This document shows, piece after piece, positions 1,968 to 63,071 of a stretch of DNA of 64,000 bases (its first letter is position 1; each line of letters begins with the position of its first letter). Position numbers and translations under genes: made by a program. The stretch lies in NCBI RefSeq assembly GCF_964355755.1, contig NC_092676.1, positions 26,828,288-26,892,287 of the forward strand. The letters run 5' to 3'. The notes below the pieces were generated by a model. The model had not been told where the DNA came from, made no database searches, and worked only from the letters and a program-made list of their open reading frames with translations. Origin of the DNA: Antedon mediterranea. Its lineage: Eukaryota; Echinodermata; Crinoidea; Comatulida; Antedonidae.

Positions 1968-2212
1968 AGGCAAATTTTTTTAAAAATGACAATGCTGTGG
2001 GTATCAGTGGCTGGATCACAATTGAGGTACAAACAAAATATGCAATGACAATGACAATACTGTGGGTATCAGTGGCTGGATCTCAATGAGATACAAAATA
2101 AAATAAGCAATGAAAAAAGTGACAATGCTGTGAGTATTAGTTGCTGGATCTCAATGAGATACAAAATAAAATAAGCAATGAAAAAAGTGACAATGCTGTG
2201 AGTATTAGTTGC
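1968..2212 (+). repeat. Tandem repeat array, left of the LINE
   Basis: About four units of 60-67 bp, each containing GACAATGCTGTG, AGTATTAGTTGCTGG (or GGTATCAGTGGCTGG) and ATCTCAATGAGATAC followed by an A/T-rich spacer. The first two units are the diverged GGGTATCAGTGGC type. The last two are nearly identical to each other and to the units right of the LINE at 3904-4055. The leftmost unit is preceded by AAAGGCAAAT, which also starts the related repeat at 6082, so this is an expanded copy of that family. Confidence 0.8.
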
Positions 2213-3733
2213 TGGAATGATCTCAATGAGATACATGGAAGTGAGAACTTCGCTAATGACTTAAACAACTTTTTCTGTCGTTTTGAATCCGAGATATTAG
2301 TTTCCAAAAATGAAAATGAAGACACAGAAATCCGCGAAAATGAGACTTCATTAGTAAACAATGCAGTCATAAATGTAGTTGATGTGCGTAATGTATTCGC
2401 CAAAGTAAAGCCTGGTAAAAGTACTGGCCCTGATGGAATTGGAAATCGTGTTATTAAATACTGCAACCAAGAGTTGGCACCGATATATACCAAACTTTTT
2501 AATGAGAGTTTAGCAAGTGGTACAGTGCCCAATCAATGGAAAACGGCCTTTATCTCACCTATTCCTAAGATAAAAAATCCCAAGGAACTTAATGACTATA
2601 GGCCAATAGCTATCACATCCAATGTTGGTAAGTGCCTAGAAAAGATTGTACTTAGGCAGTTGCTTGATCAGACCAAATTGTTTCTCGATCCTCTCCAATT
2701 TGCCTATCAGAGTAATAGAAGTGTTGAAGATGCTGTGCTCTTCCACTTACATAATATTTACCAACATTTAGATGTGCCTAAATCATATGTAAGATGTTTG
2801 TATATAGATTTTTCTAGTGCTTTTAATACCGTTGAACCTGGTTCATTAGTACGCAAACTTAAAGAAATGAACGTAAACGACACATTGACTTCATGGATAT
2901 ATAATTTCTTAACAAAAAGGTTCCAGTATGTTAAACTAAACGGTATTTTATCTGATAAAAGAACTGTTAGCATTGGCACGCCACAAGGGTCTGTTATCTC
3001 CCCAATGTTGTTTTCACTGTTCACCAGCAGTTTCAGAGCCAATTCAAATGAATGTTGTATAGTAAAATATGCAGATGACACAGTCATCACTGGATACATT
3101 ACTGGCAATGATGAAACAAGCTATAGACAACTAGGATGTGATTTTTATCACTGGTGCTGCAATAACAACCTGAAACTAAACATAAAGAAAACAAAAGAAA
3201 TGCAAATTGATTTTAGGAAAATTAAAGAACCCTTAGAACCTCTGATTATAAATGAAAATGAGATTGAAGTAGTAAATGAGTACAAATATCTGGGTTGTAT
3301 AATTGACAATAAGCTAAATTGGATAAATAATGTAAATAAAGCCACATGCAAAGCCAACCAAAGGATGTTTATTTTAAGAAAAATGAAGTACCTACAAATT
3401 GACAAAACTATACTTAAATTGTTTTATAACTCTGTAATTCTCAGTGTAATACTTTTTTGTAATGTTTGTTTTTATGGTAATACAATGCAAAAAGATAAAA
3501 TTAAACTTAATCGAATAGGAAATAGAGCAATTAGACTAGTAGGAGAGCACTTACCTGATGTTGAATCCTTGTATAAAGAAAATGTGTTAAAAAAAGTAAA
3601 AAGTATCATTGATGATGAAACACATCCTCTTCACAAACAATTTGCTCTCATGAATTCTGGCATAAGACTACGTGCACTTAATACCAAAACAAAACGGTTT
3701 AGGTGCTCGTTTGTACCTAATGTACAAAGGTAA
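2141..3733 (+). CDS. Reverse transcriptase ORF of the LINE, N-terminally truncated
   Basis: About 530 codons are open; the true N terminus is lost and no ATG start is implied. Visible RT motifs in order: GPDGIG (fingers), NDYRPIAIT, a QFAYQ block, YIDFSSAFN (catalytic Asp of motif A), TPQGSVISP (motif B) and YADDTVI (catalytic motif C). A C-terminal connector follows, with KYLGCIIDNKLNW. All catalytic residues are present and the frame is unbroken, so the copy is young, but it lacks the endonuclease needed for autonomous movement. The first residues are encoded by the flanking tandem repeat, whose unit reads in frame as DNAVSISCW, the same peptide that occurs inside the ORF. Confidence 0.85.
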   Translation: MLDLNEIQNKISNEKSDNAVSISCWNDLNEIHGSENFANDLNNFFCRFESEILVSKNENEDTEIRENETSLVNNAVINVVDVRNVFAKVKPGKSTGPDGIGNRVIKYCNQELAPIYTKLFNESLASGTVPNQWKTAFISPIPKIKNPKELNDYRPIAITSNVGKCLEKIVLRQLLDQTKLFLDPLQFAYQSNRSVEDAVLFHLHNIYQHLDVPKSYVRCLYIDFSSAFNTVEPGSLVRKLKEMNVNDTLTSWIYNFLTKRFQYVKLNGILSDKRTVSIGTPQGSVISPMLFSLFTSSFRANSNECCIVKYADDTVITGYITGNDETSYRQLGCDFYHWCCNNNLKLNIKKTKEMQIDFRKIKEPLEPLIINENEIEVVNEYKYLGCIIDNKLNWINNVNKATCKANQRMFILRKMKYLQIDKTILKLFYNSVILSVILFCNVCFYGNTMQKDKIKLNRIGNRAIRLVGEHLPDVESLYKENVLKKVKSIIDDETHPLHKQFALMNSGIRLRALNTKTKRFRCSFVPNVQR

Positions 3734-9640: not shown

Positions 9641-9689
9641 TCATAATTACATCCATCATATCATTCATTTGTCATTGTTACCATCATCA

Positions 9690-9990
9690 ATATCATATTA
9701 TTTTATCCACCATCAATTTCTTTTTATTTTATCCACCATCAATTCCTTTTTATTTCATCCACCATCAATTTCTTTTTATTTTATCCACCATCAATTTCTT
9801 TTTATTTTATCCACCATCAATTTCTTTTTATTTTATCCACCATCAATTTCTTTTTATTTTATCCACCATCAATTTCTTTTTATTTTATCCACCATCAATT
9901 TCTTTTTATTTTATCCACCATCAATTTCTTTTTATTTTATCCACCATCAATTTCTTTTTTATTTTATCCACCATCAATTTCTTTTTTTAA
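9690..9990. repeat. 26-bp minisatellite, about 11 copies
   Basis: The unit is TTTTATCCACC then ATCAATTTCTTTTTA, almost perfectly conserved except for single T insertions in the last units. Because 26 is not a multiple of 3, two overlapping frames stay open across it. They encode only the repeat. Confidence 0.95.
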
Positions 9991-11503: not shown

Positions 11504-14500
11504 CTATAAGGATAAGGAACTATCACTTTCTGGTTCAGAGTTTGGAAGGCATGCGGCTTCTTTCCATCCAGAAGCGTTCTTGCCAAATTTGTACACTAAT
11601 CGTCTGCCATCAACTCGTTCCAATATTCCACGTCGATAGTAATACCTAGAAAAAAAACAATTTTCTTAGTTTAGTTTAAAATTATCAGGGGAAAATATTA
11701 TAAATAGTTAAAGATCTCGGTCGTTATCTTGAAAACGAATTGTTGTGTGCTAATTTTCGAAAATGTTCGTTTTTGTTGAAATAATTGAAACTCTTCTATT
11801 TGATGGTATCAAACTTAAAGTTAGTTGCTATTTATATTGAATAGTTCATTTGGTTTCAGTTGTATGTGCTGTTATATGCGCTGGTGTTTGGTAAATAAAA
11901 TAAAGTACTCACCTCATTGCTCTACTAAGTTTTTCGTATGTCATTCCGGGATTATTTTTCTTCCGCCCCCACATTCTTGCAACAGCTTCTGAGTTGACAA
12001 ATCGGAAAACTCCTTCCTCTCGGTCTTCCCATCGGATGAACTTAGGGCAACACGAGTTGTTCTTTAACAGATCTCTGATAAATTCCCATAAGTGATTTCC
12101 CTTCATACCCTCTCTGCGACCCCGACCTCTGTAATTTTTACCGTCAATGTCACAATCATCGGGGTCAACACGCTGGATTTTGCGAGGTCGACCTGGTCTT
12201 CTTTTTGATACGCCTGGCAATTTATTGTGAATGTCTTTGACAATGGTTTTTCGTTGGTAGTTGTGTGTTCGGGAGGAGGCGGTATATGTGGGGGATGGAC
12301 AGTCATCCGAATAGTTCGTTGGACTTTGTGGGGGCAGTGTGAAACTTGTTCCACTTGTATCGCTACAGTCACTTTCAGAATCTGAAAAATATAAATGGTT
12401 GAAAAGGTTATGTATACAGAAATTACACTTTAGGTTTTGTTTTTCGTCTTTCGAAACTTGTTTTTCAAAAATTGTATGTGAATTACGAGAAGGCATGCAC
12501 AATAAATCATAATTCAAGTAACAATATGCTTATACAACTTTCAAAGCTTCTCAACAAATAATACGGTTTATCTTTCAGAAGAATATTTGTAGTATATCCA
12601 ATATTGAATTTATAGAAGGTCAGATAGAGGTCAATAGAAGGCACTTACCATTACCAACGTCATATCTGTGGTATATGAATGTGTCCATTATTGATGGAAG
12701 ATCAGGGAAAGTATGTGTGCCATCAAAGTGTGATAACTGACCAATTGACGGAACTGTTTGAACTGTAAATAAAAAAAAAACAATTACTAAAATAATATTC
12801 AAGTCCATCTGCTAAAACTAACTAAAACCCCGGCCATTTTCAAGGAGACTGTATACATATTCTATATGGAAAAAAGAAACAGCAAGTAGGCATACGTCAC
12901 GTCACTTAACAATTGATATCACATGACGAATACTAGTCACTTGCGCACGACTCTACCATTTCTCAAAGTAGTCTGTAGTAGTCTAAATACAAACACTGTA
13001 TGCTGGTTTATCTGTTTACAGGTGTGGGTTGCCTCTTAGAAAAACAACCAAATTCAACTTACCATCTTCGTCACCCGGCATCTCAAAATTTGGGAAAGGG
13101 TTTTGATGAAGGTCGTGACCTTTGCCGTCAAATGGTGTTGTTAGAATGATGTCATTTAGATCTGAGGGTAATAAATATTTTAGCGTATAATTTCGGAGAA
13201 AATAATAAACATCATAGTCTATCATGAAATTGTAAGGCGACCTTCTATCGTACTGATCGTGAGAATATATTTGAAGGTAGACCTATAAGTACTTGATGAA
13301 GAGATTGTAGATTTGTTGAATCAAAAAGTTAATCAATCTCCATTCATGTTACATCAACAAAATTAGGAATGAAAAACGAAGAAAACTACATTTTCTTTGT
13401 GGTTCGTTTGTATATAATTAAATAGTAGCGCTGGCGCAAATGTTACTTGGATTGAATCTTAGTTTGGCATCTTTTGGGTGTATTTTGTTGTAGATAAATA
13501 CGTCATCAAAGTAACTTACCATGCATTGATATGATAGAAGGTAATATGCCTGGCAAGCATTCGTCATCAAATGTGTCTTGGTATGTGCACACTATAGTGA
13601 AAAAAAATGTATACATTTAATACAATGCAGTGCGTGGTTTACTTTTTATAGTAAGGTGTGAATATCATTACTATTTATGAACTTCTACTGTATAAAAGTG
13701 TACTTAATTTTAAATCCAAGATATTAATTATAAATAAAATTCTTTGTTGTTTTAAAAACAAAAGGAGGAGCGAAACTCATAATCATAATTTGGTATTGTT
13801 TATGACGAAATTCAGATTCCGAGACGATAAAAGCAGTTTTATTGAACTTGCGCTTTCGGAATGCTATGGCACGTCAAGAAGGTCGCTCAGTTGATTTCAT
13901 CAGCCTAAGGGGTAAGCGTCAAGGTGATACTTAATTTATAATAGCTTAGGGTCAGACTGACAGGTACTCGTTACAAAAATGCAATGGCTTATTGCCTCCG
14001 TTATCAGTTTAAAGGACAAGTATTGGATCCAATTTATTATTCAATTTCTGTCAAACGAGTTATAGTGACACTTGTCAATTCTACGTAATCTAATTATTAA
14101 ATAGATAATATAAAAGTTACTCATTTATCTTCCCCAAAATCGATTGTTGATATTCCATGCATTATGTAATGTATTGTGGGAAGTGGTTATGAAGGCGTGA
14201 AATAGTAATCTAGGATGACAGTGCAGAATGAATGTATGACAGTCCATAATCTCTAAAACCCCCTTTTAAATCTAAATAACTTCCTAAGGAAGGATGTAGG
14301 ACTTACTCGGATCCCAACTCGTATATTCCATGTTTTGCATTGAATTAGGAGAGACTCGCGTCGATGTTACTGCGGGTTCTAGCTGTGCGTATACAGGGCT
14401 GTGTGGCGGGGTTGGCAGACCGTCGTGACCAACGTAGTTGCTTAGTTTCGTAACACCGCTTGTTAACAACTCCTGTGAACAGTCGTCACTGAAAATCTAA

Positions 14501-14906
14501 AGAAAAGGAACAACATTTTTATACTTAAACGTAATTGGTTGTCATATTAGAAAATGTGTACGCGGGCGTACTATGGTTATTATAATTTGAACGCGCGCGT
14601 TAAATATTTTGTCACGTGGTGGTTGAAACTATTCGTCCTGGTTGAATAATAAAAGTCCGTAATTTTGTTTTGAAGTATATGGATGATTGACTTTGCTTTA
14701 AATAAATAATCTTCAATAAGAATTATTCTCAATAGAAATGTATTTATAGATGAACGGTGTCATTATGATAACTGACTACAATGAAAACCAAAAATAGATA
14801 TCATGATGTTGCAATATTATTATTATAGATGGGCCGCTGTGCGAATTAGTCCGAAATTCGGTTGAACTTTATGAAAACTTACCGATTCGTTTTTGTAGCC
14901 TTCCAT
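11504..14906 (-). CDS. ETS transcription factor, ESE (ELF3/EHF/ELF5) type, AT-hook plus ETS domain
   Basis: Seven coding exons on the minus strand: 14906-14883, 14496-14307, 13591-13520, 13161-13063, 12762-12649, 12381-11913 and 11645-11504. All have GT-AG borders and matching phases, giving 369 residues and a TAG stop. Residues 228-234 (RPGRPRK) form an AT-hook. The ETS DNA-binding domain runs from about 262 ([10 protein letters not shown]) through [12 protein letters not shown], the recognition helix [14 protein letters not shown] and [12 protein letters not shown]. This wording matches the ESE subfamily of epithelial ETS factors, where ELF3 also has an AT-hook. The N-terminal half is acidic and Pro/Ser-rich (TPPHSPVY), suggesting an activation region. 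Unlike vertebrate ESE proteins no Pointed domain is visible. The start at 14906 is the first ATG in the first coding exon; that exon has an acceptor at 14988 and no upstream ATG if joined to the exon at 16454. Nuclear DNA-binding regulator. Confidence 0.9.
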
Positions 14907-14988
14907 ATTTTGGGGGTAATATGCTGTACGATATGGCAACGGTTGTTGATATCCAAAGTTACCACTCCTATCAGTTGTCTCGTAGTGC

Positions 14989-38042: not shown

Positions 38043-40154
38043 TAGTCGCGTGGAAGCGACTCTATAGTTCACTATGTCGGTCGGTCGGTCTGTCTGTCGG
38101 TCTGTCTGTCGGTCTGTCTGTCTGTCTGTCGGTCCGGTATCACTATGCGTTTTATCGCTTTCTGACCTTATCTTGATATCAGTTTAATCTAGCTAGGTCA
38201 ATTTTTCACAGTATATTCCTTATGGCCAGGAATCAATGTGGTTATGTTTTCACGGTGCGCAATAAAAAATTACGCGGTATACGCTTCTACGATTTTTTCG
38301 AAAGTTTTTGAAAAGATTATCCATAATCAATTATACAATTATCTTACAAAATGTAAAGTGTTAAGCAACAATCAATATGGATTTAGAAACAAACACTCAA
38401 CTTCTCATGCTATGATTGACTTGGTCCATAAAATATTAAATGCATTTGAAAAAAAGGAATATGCACTTACTACCTTTATGGATTTGTCAAAAGCGTTTGA
38501 CATTATCGATCACACAGTATTCTGTTGAGCAAATTGGCGCATTATGGTATAAGAGGCATCGTTTTAATGTGGTTTAGAAACTATTTAAGTGGCCGCAAAC
38601 AATATGTTTATGCCAACGGTAGATCATCATGTTTAAAAGACACCAATATAGGGATGCCACAGGGTTCTGTTTTAGGACCACTTTTGTTTTTAATTTACAT
38701 CAATGATATAAGTCGAGCAAGTAGTAAAATAGATATAATTAGTTTTGCTGACAACACAACTTGTATAACAAGGGGAGATGACCCTACAATGTTAAACCAT
38801 ACTATGAATATTGAACTAGAAAAAATAAACGTATGGCTTAAAGCAAATAAGCTGTTACTGAATGTCAGCAAAACTAATTACGTTGTTTTTAGAACTAGCC
38901 AAAAGAACTTTGACAAAAAACCAGTTTGAAATAAAAATGAATAATGTGTTATTACACAGAAAAGAAAATGTGACATTTCTAGGTGTAATTTTAAACGAAA
39001 ATCTTAACTGGAAACATCACATACAGCTTATTAGGAAAAAAATGTCTAGGGCAATTGGTATACTTTTAAAAGTAAGAGAATTCTTTCCTCATAAAGTCCG
39101 TATTAGTCTTTATAACACCTTAGTATTACCTCACCTTCAGTATGGTAACTTAATATGGGGAAATACATACAAGAGCACGTTAGAAGTAATACTAAAACTC
39201 CAAAAGAGAGCTGTAAAATGCATTACCTTCTCTAAATCCAGACAAGCCTCAGAGCCACTGTTTAAGAAACTAAAAATATTAAACGTTTATGATATTTACA
39301 AAGTAAACGTCATAGGATTTATGGCAAACGTAAAATTCAATGAATTACCACATCACATTTTAAATATTTTTAATTACTGTGACAGTATTAGGCCTACTCA
39401 TAACCTCAGAACAGAAACTGAATTCGAAATTCCCTTCACAAGACTAACTTGCAGTCAACAGTTTATACACATATATGGACCAAAATTGTGGAAAGAATTC
39501 ACTTGTAATGGTGGTAATACACCGGTTATCTTAAAGAAACAAAATAAATGTATAAAAAAACAGGTTAAAAAATACTTTTTATCACTATATGCTGATTAAC
39601 AACACCTTTGTTTATTTTATTTATACTTGTTCTTATGTAAAAGGGTCCTACAAAAAAACGAAGCTATAGCTTTTTTATGCAGGATCCCTTTTCTCAGTTG
39701 TACTGTAATTATGATGTACTGTAATTGATGACTAATAATAAATGTGGAATAAATGAAATGAAAATGAAAATTTATTTTCGATGAAATAAGAGTACATTTC
39801 AGGCAATTTTAAGCGTTTACAAAATTGCCATGAGTGCGCATATTTTTGCGCGCGCACTGCGCGTTAAATGTTATTGCGCACTCTTTTTGCCCGATTTCTG
39901 TTTTCTTGACTTACTTTTCAACTCGAAATTACGTTATACGAGCACGTCGAAAGTGACAGGCTACGCACGTGTAAATTAAAAAAAAATAAATGTTTTTAAA
40001 CATTTCAACATTTTTAAACATGTTCAGTAATTTCGGTCAGTATGGTTCACTATGTCGGTCGGTCGGTCTGTCTGTCTGTCTGTCTGTCGGTCTGTCTGTC
40101 GGTCTGTCGGTCTGTCTGTCGGTCCGGTATCACTATGCATTGTAGCACGCGACT
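38043..40154. mobile_element. TIR element family C, second copy, split by a LINE fragment
   Basis: Positions 38043-38285 match 8101-8325 of the intact copy almost base for base, and 39766-40154 match its right half. Between them about 200 bp of the element is replaced by about 1.48 kb of reverse transcriptase sequence. The GGTC/TGTC tract is expanded at the left end and also at 40045-40125, and the right end reads CACGCGACT. Confidence 0.85.
38286..39765 (+). pseudogene. Broken LINE reverse transcriptase inside the family C element
   Basis: Three overlapping frames (to 38528, 38525-38929, 38862-39599) together form a CR1/L2-like reverse transcriptase C-terminal two-thirds. Visible motifs: NNQYGFR, TTFMDLSKAFD (motif A), GMPQGSVLGP (motif B), SFADNTT at the catalytic site, and later VTFLGVILNENLNW and GPKLWKEF. 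There are two frameshifts, near 38522 and 38920. The catalytic YADD motif has become FADN, losing one metal-binding aspartate, so it cannot be active. The 3' end is an ATGAA-type tail (AAATGAAATGAAAATGAAAA). Confidence 0.9.
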
Positions 40155-44194: not shown

Positions 44195-44555
44195 GAGTAG
44201 GCCGCCTCCTATACTGTGACGACGACGAAAAACAAATGTTATGGCCGCCTCCTATACTGTGACGACGACGAAAAACAAAATAATGTTATGGCCGCCTCCT
44301 ATACTGTGACGACGACGAAAAACAAATGTTATGGCCGCCTCCTATACTGTGACGACGACGAAAAACAAATGTTATGGCCGCCTCCTATACTGTGACGACG
44401 ACGAAAAACAAATGTTATGGCCACCTCCTTATACTGTGACGACGACGAAAAACAAATGTTATGGCCGCCTCCTATACTGTGACGACGACGAAAAACAAAT
44501 GGTATGGCCGCCTTCTATACTGTAACAACTTCGTCGGAAAACAAATGTTATGTCA
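44195..44555. repeat. 43-bp minisatellite, about 8 units
   Basis: The unit is ATGGCCGCCTCCTATACTGT followed by GACGACGACGAAAAACAAATGTT. Copies are nearly identical; one has an extra TAA, one reads GGCCACC, and the last is degraded. A frame open across it merely translates the repeat. Confidence 0.95.
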
Positions 44556-46825: not shown

Positions 46826-49800
46826 ATGACACAAGAATATTTTTCAAAATGTCAGGAGGCATTTTCGTTTTTTCAATCTCACGATGATATTTCCTCTCCT
46901 GATGTAAGCATTTTTTGTTTTTATTTTTTAACTCGTTTTTTGTATGTATACTTTTCAGTAGACGCAATAAGATATAGACCTAATTAGAGGAGTTTAAAAT
47001 TTGTTTTATGTTTATAATGGCGTTTTAAATTGAAACACTTTACATAAAAGTTTAAGGAAAATGTACATTATGTCATTCATCCAAGTAAATATAATATGAG
47101 TCCAGTTGATTTGTTTTAATTTACTTAATGTAATACTTCTTGTATATCGAGTAAATCAATGTGTTTAATGTGATATATTATAATAATTTGTAACTTTCTT
47201 TTATGAAATTCATTTTCTTCAATATGAGGATATAATAATGTGCATTATTTACCTTTGCCTGCTATTATTTAACAGTGAACATTTTTTCTTTTCTATTAGT
47301 TTGTTAATAATTACATGATTATTGATAGGCCAATACCGTAATTATTAAGACATTAATCTAGGCATATTTTCCCTCATTCGCATAACGTTAAGACGTACAT
47401 CTTATTTCTTACGGTAGGAATTATTTTAGGAAATTTGCTGAATTTAATGTTTAAAATAATTTGTTTTAGGGTATTGACAACCTGTACAGTAAGATCAATC
47501 AGGACTGGCAGACGACACAGTCGTATGACGTCAGATCGCAAGTTTGCGCTAACCTCAACTTAAAGTCAACAGGTAAGACAACTCCTGCACCCCCCCCCCC
47601 TCCCCTCTCAAATATATTGTACAAAACCAGTGTACAATTGTTTATTACTGTATTACCGTATATGTTCGAACAAACGCCCGGAGGGTTTTTAGAGGAGCGT
47701 TTATTCAAGGGAGGCGTTCATTCTGGGGATGCGTTTATTTTTGGGGGTGTAAAATCACTGTTAAAATAATAGCAGGCAATGGCAATAAAATGCACATTAA
47801 TCGTCATATTGAAGAAAATGAATTTCATAAAAGAAAGTCAAATAAATTCTTCCTAAATATGAAAAAATACAACACAATTAATATCAAGAAATTCGTGGTC
47901 AATTGTAGATCAATTCTACTACATAGTATAGTATTTGAGGAAAAAAATCAAAGGCAGACGAAGATAAGTATTGACTTACCGTAATGTACGTAAAGATGGC
48001 TTATTTCAAAAAATTACAACCATCTATATATAATTGTTTAAATTCATCCTAATTTTAGACTGTTCGCGGTACTAGACGTACTATTTATTTTGCATCAAAA
48101 GTATATATATTTCTTTTACAGCAATATTTCTATTTAAGTGTAATTTATATAATCATAATGAACGGAAAACATGGTATTTGATACAAAATGGGTTATGCAA
48201 CGAGCCGAAGCTCTTTTAAACACATTACCATTTAAATAATATCTAATTAGCAAAAACAATAAAAGTAAAAATACATAAAATTATTACATAATGAATATTT
48301 TTCAGCCGTTCAAGTAATTATTATTTTAAAGGGCTTAATATGTATTTATCGACCTCTATATTGTGGCGTATTCACCTGCAGTGCATGTTTCAAAACTGTT
48401 GTGAAAAGAACACACAAACAATGTGAAGTTAAACCACAAGTCGATTAGTTTAAATCTCCCTGTAAGAAACACAAAGTATTCGAAGCAAACTGGTTGTGTT
48501 TGTAATAATACATGTAAGGTATGTTCAATGCAAATGAAACTCGGAGATGGTAAAAAAGAACTAAATTGAATTATCATATCCTTGATTCGTATGCAATATT
48601 GTTTCAACGTTTTCTTAAGCAAATCAAATCCCATAGGACCTTGGTATTACTGTTGGACAATGATGTGGTGCTTTGCCGGGGAAATTTATAGGAATGTTAT
48701 GAAGAGTTTCTCTAGAGATACATGCCCACACCTTATGCTGTGAAAATTTTACTCAATAAAATATATATTTAAATAAAACATTGAATGTAACTAGCATAGG
48801 CTACTCATTGTAATGTAGGGTCTAAAGCCTGTTTTACATTAGCGAATATTTTCGCGCCAACTTTCACGATTTCTGATTGGTTCCGTAAGTTTTCAAGTCA
48901 AATGAAAATATCACCACTTTCAATTCGCGCGAATAAATTCGTCTAGTAAAAAAAGGCTTAACCCTCAAATAACATCTCCGGTAATGTTTGCTCGTGTACA
49001 CATTTTTTGTTGTCTATAACTTTAAAGATGAATTGTCCCCCTAAAAAAAAAAATTCTTAACATTTTTTTTTTAATATGCCATTAAAAAAAATGTATTTAC
49101 CTAAAAAACTGTTATTTAAAGCAAAACATAGTCAAATTGGCAGCCAATGGGTTTTGGTTGAATTTAACCATTTAGTTTATCATTTAAGTGAAAACATAAA
49201 TTTGTTCTGGTTTTTTTTTCTACGGAAGGGATTAACTTTTATTAAAACTACAAAATAATCTATTCAAAGTCTAATTTTATCAATCTTTATTTTTCATGTT
49301 TTTAATGTAAATACATTATGATAATATACTTGAATATTCTTAGACCCCCAGACTTGGGACATCGACGATGTACAGGTGTGGTTGCGATGGGTCTCCACAA
49401 CCTGTCTTAAAATGGACCAGTCTGACATACCTCCTGTGTGTATGGATGGTAGGTCCTTGTCTAGCTGTACTGAGGATAACTTTAGGGAGATGCTCCAGGT
49501 TTCACCGATGGTTGCAGCTAATATTTACCAAATATTTAAATCATGGTACCAAGGTAAATATAATATTGGTTCTTAATTGTTTCAGATCTAATAAAGCCAA
49601 GTGTCATATTTAGGACTCGAAGTGTTTCATTAACAGGGGAGTCCTCAGAGCTCTGTCTACGCTAACTTTATGTAACAAAAAATGTGGTGTGCCCATATAT
49701 GGACACGACATATCATTGCTATCTTTATTATTCATTTGTCATCATATTCGCTATATGCCATGCAGCTGTACTTTTTTCTGTTCTTTTTTTATTTTTTATT

Positions 49801-51375
49801 CCAACTTTTATCTACTGGTTTTATATATATTTTGTATTTCTTTATTGTTTAATTAATTTATTTTCTTTATTTATTTTTTTTTTCTTCTCTTAATTTAAAT
49901 ATTTTGTAAAGGCAATCCCGTCACAAGATTGTAATCTTTTTGGGATTTGCCTTCGTCCATTTTCTTGTTTTATCACTTGCCATTTTGTTTTTGTTACTTT
50001 TGTCTTTTGGACGTGAATAAATGTTCCTTGAATTGAATTGAATTGAACCATATTTGGCATATCATTACCATATTTGGGCACTTCACACTTATTTTGTCAA
50101 AAAAGTTTGATAGTGTATAGACAGAGCTTTCTACAAGATAGGCATCCCAGCACATAACACCGTTTTCTACGATTATAAGACACTTTTTCCTAACGATTTT
50201 TTTTCTCAAAATTGTAGATGACGTTCAGACAATAAAAGCAATGACGTCAGGTGGAGGATTATGGGATAGTTTGTATGTTCAAGAACCCGTTATCTCTACA
50301 ACTATGAATGTAAATATATTTTTAAAATAATATGCATTTAAAAATGTTTTTTTCACACACAGTTTGGTAGTTTAGAGCTTAAGAGCCAGATAAAATCGAA
50401 AATAATTAATTCCATACTGACAGACTGATCAACGAATTTTTGTATTTTTAATTTTGTGTAATTCATTTTAAAGTATGAACCCCCGATGGAAACTTTCCAA
50501 CCAGACTACCACGAACCCCAGTTTGAACAACAACAACATCACCAGCACCAAGTCAACGTCGCACACTCTTCAGTTGATTGCGAAGCATGGCAGACACCAG
50601 TGTCGCCCAGTGGATATTTCTTCAACTCGGCACATGCTCCGTACGACCGACCTCTCGATTTCGGACGCCCACCCCCTGAATTCGGACGTCCGCCCCCCGT
50701 GTGTCATTACTACCCAATATCGGCTTCATGTCCGAGCAGTATGAGTGGGTGTCAGACCTCACCGTGTGACACCGTCATGGTGCCACACCAAGAACTCGAT
50801 AAGCAACCGAAGAAAAGACGAGGCCCGGGAAGACCAAAACTTATAAGACCACCTAAAACAAGTGAGTTGAAAAGAAAACTATTCATAACATTAACTATTT
50901 CTTATACTAATCGGAAGTGGTGTTTGATATGGCCAAAAAGTTTGGCATTCATGTTGTTGAGTTCTAGCTTTTCGAGAATATTAAGAATAGACCTAATATA
51001 CGTTTAATAAGTTTAACTTTCGTTCTATTATTTACAGAAAAACTACAATTGTTTGAATTTCTGCTCGAATACCTTGAGAATCCGTGCTCGCCTCACTTAG
51101 AATGGATTGATAAGTCAACTGGACTGTTTCGGTTCCAATCCGCTCACAAAGAAGACTTTGCAAATAAATGGGGCGATTATAAAGGCAACAGGAATATGAC
51201 GTATCAGAACTTAGCGCGTGCACTGCGTAACTATTGCCACAGCAATATTAAAATTATGCTGAACGAGAAAAGAAAGCTGCACTACCGTTTTAATATTGAA
51301 GCTATACTCGAGCACCCGACAAAGTTTAAATGTATATTTCGCTCTTACGCAAAACATACGACGAGGAAAAGCTAA
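46826..51375 (+). CDS. ETS factor with Pointed domain, AT-hook and SPI/PU.1-like ETS domain
   Basis: Six coding exons: 46826-46903, 47470-47572, 49344-49553, 50218-50309, 50474-50861 and 51038-51375. All have GT-AG borders and consistent phases, giving 402 residues and a TAA stop. Residues about 62-130 (TWDIDDVQVWLRWV ... MDGRSLSSCTEDNFREML ... IYQIFKSWYQ) form a Pointed/SAM domain of ESE-like style. Residues 162-270 are Gln/His/Pro-rich with a repeated FGRPPP. GPGRPK (278-283) is an AT-hook. The ETS domain (about 292-375) reads KLQLFEFLLEYL, GLFRFQSAHKEDFANKWG, KGNRNMTYQNLARALRNY. The HKE, KGNR and MTYQ..ARALRNY signatures are those of SPI/PU.1 factors, which in vertebrates lack a Pointed domain. 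A polyadenylation signal AATAAA lies at 51501. Start choice: first ATG in the first exon, close after an A-rich leader. Confidence 0.9.
47651..47760. repeat. GCGTTTATT-type dispersed repeat in intron 2 of the Pointed/ETS gene
   Basis: GTTCGAACAAACGCCCGGAG, GAGCGTTTATTCAAGGGAGG, CGTTCATTCTGGGGATGCGT and TTATTTTTGGGGGTG follow one another. This spaced GCGTT(T/C)ATT pattern is familiar from marine-animal genomes as the end of a DNA repeat. A C13 run precedes it at about 47589. Confidence 0.5.
48828..48962. mobile_element. Short MITE in intron 2 of the Pointed/ETS gene
   Basis: AAAGCCTGTTTTACATTAGC and AATATTTTCGCGCC are mirrored by TTCGCGCGAATAAATTCGTC and TAGTAAAAAAAGGCTTA. About 135 bp, non-coding. 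Confidence 0.6.
49021..49305. mobile_element. MITE family D, right end lost, in intron 2 of the Pointed/ETS gene
   Basis: The left terminus TTTAAAGATGAATTGTCCCC is clear and the interior matches the copy at 42844 (GGCAGCCAATGGGTTTTGG, CAATCTTTATTTTTCATG). The right terminal repeat is not recognisable. The end lies about 40 bp before exon 3. Confidence 0.75.
49648..50129. mobile_element. MITE family A split by a LINE 3' tail, in intron 3 of the Pointed/ETS gene
   Basis: The left half GAGCTCTGTCTACGCTAACT...CATATATGGACACGACATAT and the right half CATATTTGGCATATCATTAC...AGTTTGATAGTGTATAGACA form one family A element. About 320 bp (49725-50046) is inserted between them. The insert is T-rich and ends in TTGAATTGAATTGAATTGAA, the mark of a short non-LTR retroposon tail. 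Confidence 0.75.
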
Positions 51376-51963: not shown

Positions 51964-54900
51964 ATGGCTAATTTGAAGACATTTTTCAGGTATTTTTCAC
52001 TTTCTTTTGCCTGTTTAACATTGCAGGTAGTTAGAATATATACAACTCTACATGCTCAATAGATAATAAGTTGTCATTATAGGTGTTTATGTAATCTAAA
52101 TTATTCTGATAGCTAGGCCTTGAAGGCTAGGCTCTAACCAGCAGGGGAGGAGGGAAGCAAAGGAGCGGCTGAAGTGAGCTATTTTCCTGCTCATTGTCGA
52201 GTATGAAGAGGGGCGGTCATGTGTAAGAAATATGTAACGTCACGTGAATAATGAAATATAATTATAAAACTTACAAACACCTTGTTTGATTTTGGGAATA
52301 AAACATATCTATAATAAATTGGGCAGTGGATATTCCTAATTTTGTTTCTGCATTTGCAACTGTGTGTGGAATCCTTCAAAGAATAATGAGGGCACTTCCT
52401 CAGGACTACATAGCCTAGCATCCAGGGTAGGGAGGTACCTCCCTGGCCTATCTACCAAGTAACCAATAAAATAATCAACTGTTCTATCTAGGCCAAGCTA
52501 CAGTAGGCTAGGCTAGATTAGTATGCTAAAAATTGACTCAATTTACAGTTATGTGGACGAACATCAAGAAGAGTATGTGAAACGTTTGGCCGATGCAGTT
52601 GCCATCAAAAGTGTCTCAGCTTGGCCTGAATGCAGAGGTGACATCACAACAATGGTCCACAGTGTTGCTAAGGTACGTATAACTGGCCAAAATCAACCAA
52701 TCAGATACTGTCCTACAATTGTCCTATTCTGCAGCAAAAGTGTTAAATATATTATTGCAAAACTTTGTTTGTGTACAATGCAAATGTTTTTCAAAGTAAT
52801 TTCTAGTTGATTTAATCAACAAAAACTTTATTTCATTCGTAAACTGAGCATAATTTTCTTGGTTCCAACTATATGAGCCTCTCCGGTAAGTTTACAGAGT
52901 GATGCAAGAACTGACAAAGTTAGTCCATTACAACTGGGGCTATCAATATTTTGTGCCTTCCATACATGCTTTTTCCCATATCCGATTACAATAATTTCAT
53001 ATATTATTAATTTATTACTACAGTATCTAATTATGCTAAATATGCTTATTTAGAGTTTAGAAAAGCTTGGTGCCACAGTGGAACTGGTTAAGCTAGGACA
53101 GCAGACTCTAGATGATGGTACAGTTCTTGATCTACCAGAGGCCATCCTTGGTAAGGAGGAGAGCTTAGTCAAAATATATAAAGGTTGAAAGGCTAAAGGT
53201 TTTAAATGGGTCAATTCATTCCATCTATTTGAATTTATATACAGTATAGCAAGTGTCAAACTGTACAATAGACCCACTGTAGATGCTCAATACATTTATT
53301 GATTTAAATATGTGTTGTCCCCCTTTTACATTTTTTGTTGAATATTTCATTTTAATGTCGCATAACAGATCCACTTTGACCAATAACTGGATAAAAAAAA
53401 TTACCTGTAAAAAACGTAATTTAAAGCAAAGCAGTTCTTAAATTCTCTGTCAAACAATTTTTTTTGGTTAAAATTAACAGGATTTTTAAAAACTTTTTAA
53501 AAGTGAAATAATTTTTGTTCTCTACAGAAGTGAATAATTTTATTAAAACTGCAAAATGGCCTATTCAAAGTATTTAAAGTTTTTATTAATCTTTATGTTT
53601 CATGTTTTTGGGGGACAAAACATCTTTATCATTTAGAATATTCTGTAGAGAGACGGTTGTACTGTACATCCAAATATGGTGAAGAGTGCTGGGACCTCGA
53701 CAATAATAGATAGTAGAGAGATAAACTGTCCTCTTAATACTAAATATGAACATTGTCATTTTTATTACACAACAATTTGTGTGTGTACCACTTGAAAAAT
53801 AGTTACATTCAACAAAAGATTATCTCGGTCAAATCTTAATTAAGTAAATCGTAAGTTGGTAAATTAATCCCGCCATTTTTATTTGCTTTTTTGATGTACA
53901 TGTATATTAATATTTAAGGTGATTTTATATATTATTGATGTATTTTTAATGTTATTTATTGAGATGCCAAATAAATGAAAAGAAAAGAAAAATCGGCTCA
54001 TGTAAACAGCAAAGAAAAAGCACCGAAAGAGGAAGTGTTCCTTAAAAACTATACCAAATAAAATGTCATATAACAATGTAGAGTTATGTTTAACCATGCT
54101 TATAAGTGTAATAAAATGATATATTTATGATTAAAGATTCAAAACCAAATAATAAATATGGTTTTTGAACTCATTATTTGTTCATTAGAGCAAACACAAA
54201 ATTTACAGAGTTTTCCCCAGATAAATAATATAATGGCATCTCATAGAAAGTTATTAATTTCAATACTCTGTACTCTCGTAAGTCTTGTATTGACCCACTC
54301 AAAAAGTTCAAACACCCCAATTTTGTTTTTGAATAATTATGATTTCAATTAGTTTAATTTTAAAAAGTTTTAGAAAATGTATTATTTTTTTAAATATTAT
54401 TTTCTTGATTATATTTAATAATTTTATATTTCAGGTTCACTTGGGTCAGACCCAAATAAGAAAACTGTCTGTCTGTATGGACATTTAGATGTGCAACCAG
54501 CCCAAGTGGTAATATTATTTATATTGTTTATAATCTTTAATTACAGTTAAGTCCTGTACTTGGTCAGATGTTTGCCCTACTCTGACGTAATTTGTAGTTT
54601 ATACTAAGTACATTGAGAATACTTCAACAAAAATATGCAAGTTATTTTCAGGTGGGACTCAAACCCACGACCTTTAGATCACCATTCTGACATTTATACC
54701 TCTAAACCACTGAGCTTGCCTCGATGGCTAGGGGTTACATTCAAACTTAGTGGTCTATAGGTATGAACGTGATAGGCTAGTAATGTGGAGGTCGTGGGTT
54801 TGAGTCCCACCCGAGAACTACTTGTGTATTCTCAATGTACTTAGTATAAAGTACAAATACGTCAGAGTAGGGCAAAAATTTGACCAATTACTCTACACCC

Positions 54901-57900
54901 TGATTCAAAGTTACTCCACAGTAATTACAAACAATTTCAAGCCCTGTCCTATTACTAGGTGATTTGTAACATTTTTACAACTCTCCAAGTTAACAATTTG
55001 TTTCTATAAATGATTTAAACAGTCAGATGGTTGGGACACAGAGCCGTTTGTTTTAACGGAAAAGGATGGCAAGCTTTATGGGAGAGGATCGTCTGACGAT
55101 AAAGGACCAGTTCTGGCATGGGTCAACATGATAGAAGCTATGCAGGCTCTCGGCCAAGAAATTCCAACCAATATTAAGGTATGCTTGCATGTATAGGCCA
55201 AGAGATTCCTGCAGGCTCTAGGCCAAGAGATTCCCACCAATATTCGGGCATATATAGGGCAAGAGATTCCAACCAATATTAAGGTACAGTATGCTGGCTT
55301 GTATTGGCCAAGAGATTCCTGCAGGCTCTAGGCCAAGAAATTCCCACCAATATTTAGGTATTCTGGCATGTATAGGCCAAGAGATTCCTGCAGGCTTTAG
55401 GCCAAGAAACTTACACCAATATTAAGGTCGTGTTGTATGCAGGCTCCACCCCGACCGGTTGTCACAAACCACTAACTTGTGATGACTGGCTGATATTTTT
55501 CTTTTCATTTTAGTTTTGCTTTGAAGGTATGGAGGAGTCTGGCTCAGAAGGTCTAGATGAACTAGTGTTTTCAAGGAAAGACACATTTTTCAAGGTATAC
55601 AACACATACATTATACAATAAGGTTATTTTTTTATACTATAATTTTAATGTAAATTAATAAAATTCATTCAAAAGATAAGCTCCTTTTCCATATTTGCTA
55701 TTGTGTGTTGCGATAATATAATATCATTATCTATATCTATAGGATGTTGATTATGTATGCATCTCTGATAATTACTGGTTAGGCAAAAAGAAACCATGCA
55801 TCACATATGGTTTAAGGTATGTTTATTACATATGTTCATTTTAATTCGCAACATATAATACACATTGTTGAGTACAGTTTGAATATAACAATCATTACTT
55901 TTAACTGCCATACCCATATTGTATTACATATTATGTTGAGATTTGTTAAGTAGCACCCTCTATGTTTGGATGTATTTTTTAAATAATTATAGCACCCTCT
56001 GTGGTATGGCCATGCTTTTATAAAGTCTTGATATTTCATTTTTCCAAGTTGGAACCACTGCTTTGACAGATGCATTCTTTCTTTATAGAATGGTATTTAA
56101 CTGTTTTTTGTTTTGGTTCTTTTTAGAGGTATTTGCTACTTTTTTATTGAAGTGAAATGTGCAGATAAAGACTTGCATTCTGGCGTCTTTGGAGGTTCAG
56201 TGTGAGTTACATTAATTTAATTAAATTTACAATTAAACCTTTTTTTTATCTAGAAAATCTAAATCTGCCTTTTAATGAACGCAAATAAGTTTTATCCAAA
56301 TTCCGTGGTAAACCACAGTCAAGTTAAGGTTTCTAGTTATTGCGTCTTTGGTATTTTAAATTTTTTCAATATAATTGAAAAAAAAAACTTAAAATTTATG
56401 TTACTATATGCCACAGTATTTAATTATTATTGTTAAAATTAATGTTAACATTTCTATTAAATATATATAATATGTATTTAATTAACTATTATTTAATAGG
56501 CATGAGGCCATGGCTGATGTAATAGCCCTTTTGAACACTCTTGTTGATGTCAATGGCAAAATCTTGGTTCCTGGTGTCACAGATACCGTGGCCGAACTTA
56601 CTCCAGAAGAAAAGGCAAAATATGAAGCGATTGATTTTGATAAGGTAATGCTTATTATTGTGGTGCAAGAGTGTGTAGTAGTATCACAGGTTTTTAAACT
56701 TGGCTACCGAACCATCAGTCCTGGGTTCAAATCCTGTTGGATATCTGAATTTTGTCACATGACAAAACACTCCCAAAGACTTGTTATAAAGCTCTGTCTA
56801 CATTATCAAATTTTATGTGACAAAGAAAATGTGATGTGCTACTATTTTTCAGCATATCAATACCATATTTGGGCACATCACACTTTCTTTGTCAAACTAG
56901 TTTGATAGTGTACAGATTAAGAATGTTTATGTAGAGCATCTTGTGTCTTTGTCTAGTCCATGGATTGTCACCTGTATATCAATATACTATCAATAGTACT
57001 TGCCAGTGTGACAACATGCTGATTTAAAAATAGTTCACAACAACACTAAAGTTCTGTCTACACTATCAAACTTTATGTGACAAAAAAATGTGATGTGCCT
57101 ATATATGGACATGATGATGTCATATCACGACCATATTTAAGCATATCACTACCATATTATCAAACTTTATGTGACGTGCCTATATATGGACATGATGATA
57201 TCATGTCACTGCCATATTTAAGCATATTACTACCATATTTAGGTGCATTACACTTTTTTCAAGGGGAAGTATTTTCAATGATGCATGTTTAGAATCGGTA
57301 TAATGTTTTCAAAGAAATTCACAATAAATAATGTTGTTTGTGTTGTAGGAGGATTATAGAGAAGACATCGGGGCTAACAAGTTGATGCATGAAAGTAAAG
57401 AACAGATATTGATGCATAGGTGGCGCTATCCATCATTGTCCATTCACGGTAAGACTATTCTTTTATTCTTTATTAAAGCCCCATTCCCTACGTTTTTTAG
57501 ATCTAATTTAAGATCACAAACTATATTTAATGTAAAAATAATACTATGTGGTCCTATTGCGATAACTTTTTTCGTCTTTAAACGGTTAAAAATGTGAAAA
57601 ATAAATCGATTCTAATAATTATAGCGGCCCGCTATAAATCCCAAAATGCATTGCGCGCGGATTGATATTTTTGTTTTTCACCTGTAATTCGCCCACTTTT
57701 CGATCGATCGTGAAGCCAAAACAAATGGAAGACTCCTAACTTTTCAGCGAAAATACCGGGTTTTCCCTAATTTGTATCAACGGAGTCTGGCAAAAATAGA
57801 AAGACAATTAATGCAGCAACTATACAACGTCAGGCTAGGTATATAGCTAGCGTACGATGTTCGTACGTTATCGATGTTTACCAGCTAGGCCTACAAAACT

Positions 57901-60540: not shown

Positions 60541-63071
60541 CTATCTGTCAACTGACACCTTCTCTTTGCTGAACAATAATTTTATAAGTTCATGTGAATA
60601 TTCCAATTCCTCCTAAAACAGAAAGAAAAAAAAATTGTATACAGTTTTGTTGGCAAATTTAGATTGTGTAAAGCTCTGTCTACACTATCAAACTAATTTG
60701 ATGGAAAAAGTGTGATGTGCCCAAATATGGTAGTGATATGACATCATCATGTCCATATATGGGCAAATCGCATTTTTTTGTCACATAAAGAGCTCTACAT
60801 TTGTTGTTTCTACAGTATGTCCCTAATAACAGCAACTACATAGTTTGTGTACGTTATGTTCTTAACACTAACCTGGAATTCTTCTTTCCCTTTTAACATC
60901 TCTTGTCGATCCTTTAATAGTTTATGCAAATGTAAACAAGGATTCTTAGCATCTGATTGGGCAGCTGTGTGGTCTTGAACCAGAGTCAATAAGGAGAGCA
61001 TTACGTATTCATGAGTGTTGTCATGGTCCGTCTGTAGCATGCTCACTAACTGGTCTACCATCCCCATCTGCTGTACCACATCTGTCGACAGTATCAACAT
61101 TTTATTTTACACATTAAAATCGACTAGTAAAAACAAGGTATCAACTATGGCACTCAAATCATATATTTTATTTACGTTTGTCAAGATTGAGATGGCCATG
61201 GTGGCTTAAAATAATATTAATAATTTATAATATTGAGAAGAGTATCCCCAGTGATTTTTTGAAAACACTTCATAAAGTTAGTGTTGCCCTGGGCTGGATG
61301 TAGACCTGGACCACTTGAGATAGGTCCAGAAGAGGCTTTGATATTTTGGCCGGCTTATGCAGTGAACGGCTCCTCAATGGCTTGAGGAAATGAATCCTCA
61401 GGGCCGTCGTTTAGAACACAAGTGTAAACATGCTAGATCGGCCCGAAACAATTACTGGAATGGCACAGTACCCATTGTGTAAATGGGGTCTTAGGCCAGG
61501 TGGATGAGGTGACTTCATCTACATTCTTATCCAAAAGAAATACATTTCTTGGTAATTTACCTTTGTGTTTTGAATCCATTCTGAGAATGCTGTTAAGGAG
61601 GAATGATGCTTTGATTCTTAGCTTTGTGATACAACCTTGCATTGCTCTTACGAGATAAGAGAAGCCATCATTTGCTGTGAACGCTTCTAGACAAGGCTCA
61701 TGATCACGTACCATACCTAATTGCAAAAACAAAAATATTTGATGAATTTGAACTAAATTTCGCCTGGTTTATTTAACTATTATCCATAATGATCTTTTTA
61801 TATTCTTGTTTTATTTTATTATCATATTTATTTTATATATTTCTCGCAACATAGGCCTACTAAAAAAAATTGATTATGTGGAAAATTGTGTGTCGTTTAC
61901 GACTGCATTAGTTATAGGTATTAAATTTCTTATTCGGGACAACAAATAAATTACAAGTAACATACAGGAGATAGCATACAATGCTTTAACTCTCACGATG
62001 TCTGCATCATCTTTGTCTACGAGGTCAAAGAGCACTGGTATCATGTCATGGTTCAAGAGTACGTTCTGGCTGTATGGATTGTTTTGCGATACCATTGCTA
62101 TCAATTCTGCCGTGTTCCACCTCACCTCTGAACTGGGATCGTTTAGGAGTTCTTTTAGGATTGCAGTTCCACCAATCTTGTGAAAATCTAGCAAAAGAAA
62201 AATGTTTCACTTTATCTGTCTACTTACTTGTTTGTCATCACTATAGTCATCATTTTCATTTTCCGCTACTGTCTTACTGTGGCTTGGTGGTTAACGTGCT
62301 TACCTGAGTTCGACCCTGACCAGGGTTTAAACTCGCGAATCTTTCAACTCCACTCCCCTAAGCTTGGTTCCCACTACAACGTAACGCAAGGACGTAAACG
62401 CAACGCAAGCGTTTTAACCAATGACGAGAGAAGTTATAGACAGTTAGCAATCACAAGCAAATAAGCCATCGCTTGTGATTGGTCAATTCACTTGCGTTGA
62501 GTTACGTCCTTGTGTTGCTTAACCCTAAAATGAGACTCGGTTTATAAGCATGATAAATTATAGAAATAGTTTATCCCTCCTGTAATTGGATGAGTGGAGA
62601 GTTACTCGCTGTTGGAAGCGTATGATATTTAAAAAAAACCCAAAAAAGTCTTAGCATGTGACCAATTGCTTTTAATGTGTAACTTACCGCTCGCATTGTC
62701 TATAGTTTGACAAAGGTCTTGTAAATGTTCTAGTAGAGATGCTTTCACTAAAGTGTCGTTCTCATGAGAGCTGCCAAGCAGTGGTTTAATATTATCCACA
62801 GTTTTTTTCATCTCCTTCGCTTCATCACAATGTAAATCGTTGAAAACATTTCGGAGAAACTCTTTTTTCTAAAGAAAGAATTTTCTAAATTACTTGGAGA
62901 TGAATAAAAAGAAATTTATTTAGTGATTATTGGTAAACATTTTCTGATGTTTACCTCTTCGGTCATCTCTTCTCTTTCGACCGGTTCATCGCTTTGTACT
63001 GTGTTTTCAACTGCAAGCTGTAATATTCCAGATAAACTCTGATCAGGCTGATTTCGACTTCCGGATGCCAT
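60541..63071 (-). CDS. HSPBP1: Hsp70-binding protein 1 (Fes1-type nucleotide exchange factor)
   Basis: Six coding exons on the minus strand: 63071-62955, 62868-62688, 62187-61966, 61716-61561, 61081-60873 and 60612-60541. Borders are GT-AG with matching phases, giving 318 residues and a TAG stop. The protein is an armadillo-repeat nucleotide exchange factor for cytosolic Hsp70. Diagnostic segments are EVRWNTAELIAMVSQNN, DIVRVKALYAISCMVRDHE, GFSYLVRAMQGCITKLRIKASFL and DVVQQMGMVDQLVSML; the ARM core is about residues 85-270. The N-terminal 40 residues are polar and acidic, shorter than the Gly-rich vertebrate leader, which explains the smaller size (vertebrate forms about 360). The start has a sound context (AATCATGGC). 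A 5'UTR intron is likely: acceptor at 63101, donor at 63479. Confidence 0.95.
60670..60789. mobile_element. MITE family A in HSPBP1 intron 5
   Basis: AAAGCTCTGTCTACACTATC at the left and TTTTTTGTCACATAAAGAGC at the right, with AATATGGTAGTGATATGACA inside. Confidence 0.85.
61082..61560 (-). other. HSPBP1 intron 4, no extra exon
   Basis: 479 bp of intron between the exons ending at 61561 and starting at 61081. No further exon is needed, since the frame is continuous across the junction. Confidence 0.8.
62272..62345 (+). repeat. tRNA-like SINE fragment in HSPBP1 intron 2
   Basis: GTGGCTTGGTGGTTAACGTG (A-box-like) and GAGTTCGACCC/AGGGTTTAAACTC (B-box-like) in tRNA spacing. No complete cloverleaf. 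Confidence 0.5.
62358..62523. mobile_element. MITE family B in HSPBP1 intron 2
   Basis: The left arm AAGCTTGGTTCCCACTACAA with CGTAACGCAAGGACGTAAAC is mirrored by TCACTTGCGTTGAGTTACGT with CCTTGTGTTGC. The last about 20 bp of the right terminus is replaced by TTAACCC. Confidence 0.85.

Follow-up and report, generated by a model that had tools for sequence, protein, structure and literature searches.

The window analysed here is a 64,000-nucleotide stretch of the genome of the crinoid Antedon mediterranea (contig NC_092676.1, positions 26,828,288 to 26,892,287, forward strand). At positions 46826-51375 (+) it harbours a gene whose predicted protein carries a Pointed domain, an AT-hook-like motif and an ETS domain, in this order, with the ETS domain belonging to the SPI subfamily. 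The vertebrate SPI members are not known to have a Pointed domain. The observation is real and goes beyond chance, and, as a gene model deduced from the sequence, this is very probably an SPI gene with a Pointed domain; it also appears to be the sole representative of the SPI family (PU.1/SpiB/SpiC/SpiD), no second one having been found in this genome. The gene stands beside an ESE gene and near POLD1.

Gene model and placement of the ETS domain

The gene consists of six GT-AG exons which form one open frame of 402 residues with a terminal stop. Coding exon 1 (46826..46903) comprises 26 codons from the start ATG to the donor GTAAGC; neither this exon nor exon 2 (47470..47572) nor the linker exon 4 (50218..50309) has a known homologue. 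The Pointed (SAM_PNT) domain, assigned by Pfam, is encoded by exon 3 (49344..49553, residues 61-130), while exon 5 (50474..50861) codes for a Pro/Gln/His-rich linker ending in the AT-hook-like KKRRGPGRPK (residues 274-283), and exon 6 (51038..51375) for the SPI-type ETS domain (residues 294-375), the C-terminal tail and the stop. The phases in and out of exons 1 to 6 are 0-0, 0-1, 1-1, 1-0, 0-1 and 1-end, the Pointed exon being symmetric. When eight donor combinations were compared for this chain, a single one was open to the terminal stop and at least 11 stops were present in the other seven. Single-base shuffling of each exon (4000 shuffles per exon) left exon 3 open in 80 cases, exon 5 in 28 and exon 6 in 1, and openness of these three exons by chance is unlikely. 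Exons 1, 2 and 4 are weakly backed by openness, since their shuffled versions were often open as well (763, 620 and 348 of 4000, respectively).

Both domains exceed the Pfam cut-offs: SAM_PNT matches residues 52-125 with 35 bits (E 1.4e-8, cut-off 24) and Ets residues 294-375 with 69.3 bits (E 3.6e-19, cut-off 26.9). Hence the description given by the first-pass annotation, a hand-spliced six-exon chain which closes in frame and joins both domains in one predicted protein, is borne out, as are the SPI hallmarks listed there, all located within residues 327-356 (HKE at 327-329, KGNR at 339-342, MTYQ at 344-347 and ARALRNY at 350-356). The AT-hook proposed for residues 278-283 stood in part. GPGRPK is indeed found at these residues, but GRP is preceded by P instead of R and the assignment is a pattern match only, Pfam AT_hook not being listed at E<=10 for a 30-residue piece or for the ESE protein (in a program which discards most matches with E above 0.1). 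Across the open frames of the window and of the other loci compared, 109,444 residues in total, the pattern was detected at four distinct places: the SPI-type gene, the ESE gene, one other frame of the window and the ELF locus, upstream of the ETS exon. Since the ELF locus has one too, the motif is not unique to the ESE and SPI genes.

A PDB search with the ETS domain placed PU.1, SpiD and SpiB on top (74.0-63.8 bits, 12 distinct sequences), and the first non-SPI matches among the best 60 of 67 were FLI1 (44.2 bits) and EHF (43). A tree was built from 19 ETS domains, of which this genome contributed 11 and PDB 8; the branch separating the window gene and PU.1/SpiB/SpiD from all others received a support of 99.2/99 (Shimodaira-Hasegawa-like approximate likelihood ratio test/ultrafast bootstrap, SH-aLRT/UFBoot); under the site-heterogeneous C20 model it received 94.4/93. 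In the alignment of the same domains, all four SPI rows have two extra residues ahead of helix 2, in an insertion with HKE that none of the 15 others shows. Amino acid identity amounts to 47-49% with the three SPI domains versus 28-40% with the 15 others, and the recognition-helix arginines as well as the MTYQ..ARALRNY block are intact (MTYQNLARALRNY, residues 344-356). Constrained into ESE, the window gene was just rejected by the approximately unbiased (AU) test (p 0.047), whereas the Kishino-Hasegawa (KH, 0.051) and Shimodaira-Hasegawa (SH, 0.125) tests still allowed this position, which speaks against the SPI placement. On the strength of the SPI grouping and the AU result, ESE membership of the ETS domain, considered as a candidate, was rejected. 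The phylogenetic comparison suggested in the first-pass annotation thus puts the domain in SPI, and the idea that the ETS exon had been exchanged or had converged is unlikely in view of the SPI grouping under both models and the SPI-only HKE insertion. As the branch of the window gene is long, long-branch attraction is a caveat for this placement; the HKE insertion and the gene neighbourhood are independent of it.

The likeness to the SPI members (PU.1, SpiB and SpiD; also SpiC) thus extends over the ETS sequence, the HKE insertion and the KGNR, MTYQ and ARALRNY blocks. Unlike them, the window gene also encodes a Pointed domain and carries an AT-hook-like motif; the GNRKK loop of its ETS domain is shorter by one residue, and the C-terminal half of this domain is divergent. 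With the ESE group (ELF3, EHF, ELF5) it shares the order Pointed - (AT-hook) - ETS, as in ELF3, which carries an AT-hook, but it has neither the GKNA.GW motif after the ETS domain nor an intron inside this domain.

Searches of the 354 Mb assembly (18 contigs) yielded 12 places with an ETS domain, which were read as eleven genes: ERG, ETS1/2, GABPA, ELK, TEL, ELF, ERF, SPDEF, PEA3, ESE and SPI. The names were assigned by reading of the sequences, those of SPI and ESE by PDB search as well. With SpiD as a query, the window gene was the best match (67.7 bits), followed by GABPA (55.4), and neither this query nor the 12 ETS places disclosed a second SPI gene in the assembly. Besides the tree and the HKE insertion, the SPI placement is supported by the finding of no other SPI gene and by the proximity of POLD1.

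The Pointed domain and its exon

The label of an ESE-style Pointed domain, given by the first-pass annotation, was dropped as unsupported by pairwise scores, profiles, the EHF query and the trees. Among nine Pointed domains compared with that of the window gene, TEL (69, z 10.2) and SPDEF (65, z 9.8) scored highest, followed by ERG (63, z 8.5), ETV6 (61, z 9.4), a Pointed exon at C7:412295 of the same assembly (55, z 9.4), ETS1 (47, z 6.8) and GABPA (47, z 5.8), with ELF3 (42, z 5.2) and EHF (32, z 3.5) at the bottom. TEL, SPDEF and ERG are thus the most similar by score and yet only 20-26% identical to the window domain, and plain identity to all nine (0.20-0.26) gives no separation. A profile of seven non-ESE Pointed sequences reached 33.5 bits and one of two ESE sequences 11.4, the two profiles differing in depth. 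In a PDB search at E<=1 the matches were chains of TEL, ERG, GABPA, SPDEF, ETS1 and FLI1, with EHF and ELF3 not among them, and human EHF as a query of the assembly (E<=10) did not match the Pointed exon of the window. The tree of the Pointed domains is less selective: all six tested placements lay inside the AU set, so that the low scores of EHF and ELF3 stand beside an ESE placement which is itself within this set (AU 0.137). No near paralogue of the domain was found in the genome (best match after self at E 0.35), and hence, within the reach of the search, nothing indicates that its exon was copied recently from another Pointed exon.

The acceptor of the Pointed exon is in phase 1, inside the Asp codon of DPxxW. 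The same Asp-codon acceptor is used in five of the six other Pointed exons read in this genome (ERG, ETS1, GABPA, SPDEF and the exon at C7:412295), and SPDEF and ERG therefore agree with the window gene in this position, unlike TEL, whose acceptor, phase 1 as well, lies 5 nt upstream. A phase-1 donor follows the acceptor after 66-68 codons in four of these six exons and after 70 in the window gene. The ETS exon, in turn, is preceded by a phase-1 intron which ends 11 nt short of the helix-1 codon. Phase-1 introns in a comparable position, 11-20 nt before this codon, were observed in ERG, ETS1, ELK, TEL and ELF, and none in GABPA, ERF, PEA3 and ESE (nine genes examined, SPDEF left out). The window gene has, in other words, the ordinary build of a Pointed-ETS gene, which fits inheritance.

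The Pfam Pointed model matched 11 places in the assembly at E<=1, the window gene with 36.4 bits. One of them, C7:412295-412471, is a TEL-like Pointed exon (55.6 bits) in an open frame of 157 residues, situated ∼41 kb to the right of the TEL ETS exon (C7:371193), with the next ETS place on the contig 20 Mb off. Drosophila mae/edl is a Pointed-only protein, and by analogy this exon may possibly encode a protein of the same kind.

Neighbouring genes

An ESE (ELF3/EHF/ELF5) gene is located at 11504..14988 on the minus strand, 32 kb from the SPI-type gene and head to head with it. Its seven modelled exons are open, the 5' end being provisional, and the only Pfam match above cut-off is Ets. The ETS domain, which is interrupted by an intron, scores 153 bits with EHF and 147 with ELF3, groups with ESE (89.4/90), and has an AT-hook-like motif upstream of it. 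No Pointed exon was found for this gene by Pfam on the assembly, by six-frame profiles of the window or by human EHF against the assembly.

To the left of the window lie exons of DNA polymerase delta (C7:26764167-26768589, on the contig of the window), ∼106 kb from the start of the SPI-type gene; the one exon tested gave 103.9 bits to human Pol delta. In human, POLD1 adjoins SPIB (19q13.33), so that the two SPI genes are alike in having POLD1 nearby; SPI1, EHF and ELF5 are all on human 11p. By our own arithmetic, the chance that one single-copy gene falls within 106 kb in 354 Mb is near 0.06%, or about 0.2-0.3% after correction for the four families examined. These four were searched as neighbours of vertebrate SPI or ESE genes, and one of the four was near.

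Further open frames were noted in the same region. Between POLD1 and the ESE gene (C7:26782380-26801064, minus strand), four similar long open frames are arranged in tandem; they are about 560-580 residues long, one being cut by the end of the piece, and look alike by eye. The first copy, which was scanned, shows weak EF-hand and HMGL-like similarity below cut-off. Two open frames at 61433-62206 (-) of the window are HSPBP1-like by eye, with a HEAT match of 31 bits at 61874-62206; human HSPBP1 is on 19q13, like SPIB. Positions 52517-52810 and 56486-56905 (+) are cytosolic dipeptidase-like (CNDP2-like) by eye, with no Pfam match at E<=0.1. Reverse transcriptases of the long interspersed element (LINE) type were recognised by eye in a long open frame at 2141-3733 (+) and across several frames at 38193-39599 (+), and minisatellites occupy 9681-9986 (26-base unit, 11.7 copies) and 44200-44552 (43-base unit, 8 copies).

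Origin and meaning of the gene

On balance, we favour the explanation that the gene is an SPI orthologue in which an ancestral Pointed exon has been retained, the same exon having been lost from the vertebrate SPI genes. According to this reading, the SPI lineage of early deuterostomes would have had a Pointed exon, in common with several further ETS subfamilies, the vertebrate SPI genes would have lost it, and the neighbouring ESE gene would have lost its own Pointed exon separately. Retention is a better reading than its main rival, namely a secondary gain of the Pointed exon by capture, for instance from the neighbouring ESE gene. The 1-1 symmetry of the exon would suit such a capture, as would an ESE gene 32 kb away which shows no Pointed exon, and vertebrate SPI genes which are not known to contain the domain. 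EHF and ELF3, on the other hand, are the least similar to it by score (z 3.5 and 5.2 versus 9.4-10.2 for TEL, SPDEF and ETV6), although this contrast is softened by plain identity, which is 0.24 for both EHF and ELF3 against 0.23-0.26 and does not separate them. Moreover, a capture would have to be old, because the domain has no near paralogue. Taken together, we consider the capture of the exon unlikely.

Two other explanations are less probable still. The model might have run together two genes, a Pointed-only gene of the mae/edl kind and an ordinary SPI gene following it. The chain was predicted from sequence alone, exons 1, 2 and 4 are short and without known homologues, and what looks like a Pointed exon, not seen to be followed by an ETS exon, does exist near TEL; still, the phases fit through all six exons down to one terminal stop, and just 1.5 kb separates the Pointed exon from the ETS exon, the two sharing a strand and following each other in the usual order, which makes a fusion of this sort quite improbable. 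Even less credible is the idea that the gene arose by duplication of the adjacent ESE gene and that its ETS domain then converged on SPI features. It would account for the head-to-head arrangement and for the AT-hook-like motif present in both genes, the ESE gene of the window is the top-scoring non-SPI ETS domain (128), and the KH and SH tests allow it. The SPI grouping of 99.2/99, the HKE insertion and the AU value of 0.047 argue against it, and so do the missing GKNA.GW motif, the absence of the intron which the ESE gene of the window has within its ETS domain, the fact that no other SPI gene was found which could be the true one, and the POLD1 linkage.

Retention of the ancestral exon also has to be set against several points that weigh on the other side. 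The Pointed tree does not discriminate between the six placements, all of which fall inside the AU set, and the symmetric 1-1 exon of the domain suits capture as well. Retention was judged against the SPI genes of vertebrates, and a further SPI gene could lie concealed where the assembly is masked or incomplete. The union of exons 3 and 6 in one transcript is deduced from splice sites and frame, and the quality of a single-sequence structure model for residues 1-161 was too low for use (mean predicted local distance difference test score, pLDDT, 46). Of the neighbour families searched, LTA4H/RNPEP (PF09127) is on contig C9 and NDUFS3 (PF00329) on contig C8, neither of them near the window gene, and the nuclear receptor nearest to the window is NR1D-like (72.7 bits), not NR1H.

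The first-pass annotation had raised the possibility that SPI and ESE descend from a common Pointed-bearing ancestor. As regards SPI itself, a Pointed-bearing ancestor is the favoured reading; that it was shared with ESE is not decided by the trees, in which sister placements of SPI with ESE, ELF, TEL, SPDEF or the ETS group are all within the AU confidence set. A shared ancestor is attractive because of the linkage and the motif order, and linkage and AT-hook-like motifs lean towards ESE, though the ELF gene also has such a motif. We therefore put forward only tentatively, as a somewhat doubtful extension, that a single gene of the Pointed - AT-hook - ETS type was duplicated locally and gave rise to SPI and ESE. 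If so, the pair would still be adjacent near POLD1, each sister keeping a different part of the ancestor, and PU.1-type factors of vertebrates would be stripped-down descendants, deprived of the Pointed module by the time they took on their role as master regulators of blood cells.

The protein would be a GGAA-binding transcription factor whose ETS domain reads DNA in the PU.1 way; such binding is likely, to judge from the intact ARALRNY recognition-helix block. The AT-hook perhaps aids through contact with the minor groove, and the Pointed domain may bind a partner, be it a kinase, a co-regulator or another Pointed protein. By analogy with other ETS factors, the Pointed domain would provide the protein with a surface for docking or self-association, as described for ETS1/2 with ERK2 (PMC10664356) and for TEL (PMC8151852).

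A match to Bindin, a protein known from sea urchins and sea stars, was found in the assembly (107 bits, with one stop read through) and suggests an echinoderm; COX1 and GH6 gave no match, GH6 being uninformative since the controls were silent too. The PU.1/SpiB/SpiC subfamily has already been reported from echinoderms, specifically from sea urchin (PMC3308324, citing Rizzo 2006), whereas a mollusc survey records no SPI gene and numerous ESE genes that lack the Pointed domain (PMC10664356), an argument in favour of the loss proposed here for the ESE gene. No mention of a Pointed domain in an SPI gene was encountered in the literature searched (titles and the starts of abstracts, most subscription literature being outside reach). 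The present case suggests that Pointed domains were lost and kept independently across the ETS subfamilies. Within the ETS family, the SPI subfamily stands apart as an outlier, and one of its members, PU.1, has a key regulatory role in the myeloid cells of vertebrates. A Pointed-bearing SPI gene beside ESE and near POLD1 provides a concrete and checkable picture of the SPI ancestor, and the loss of a module for kinase or partner docking may have been a route by which the vertebrate SPI factors were rewired.

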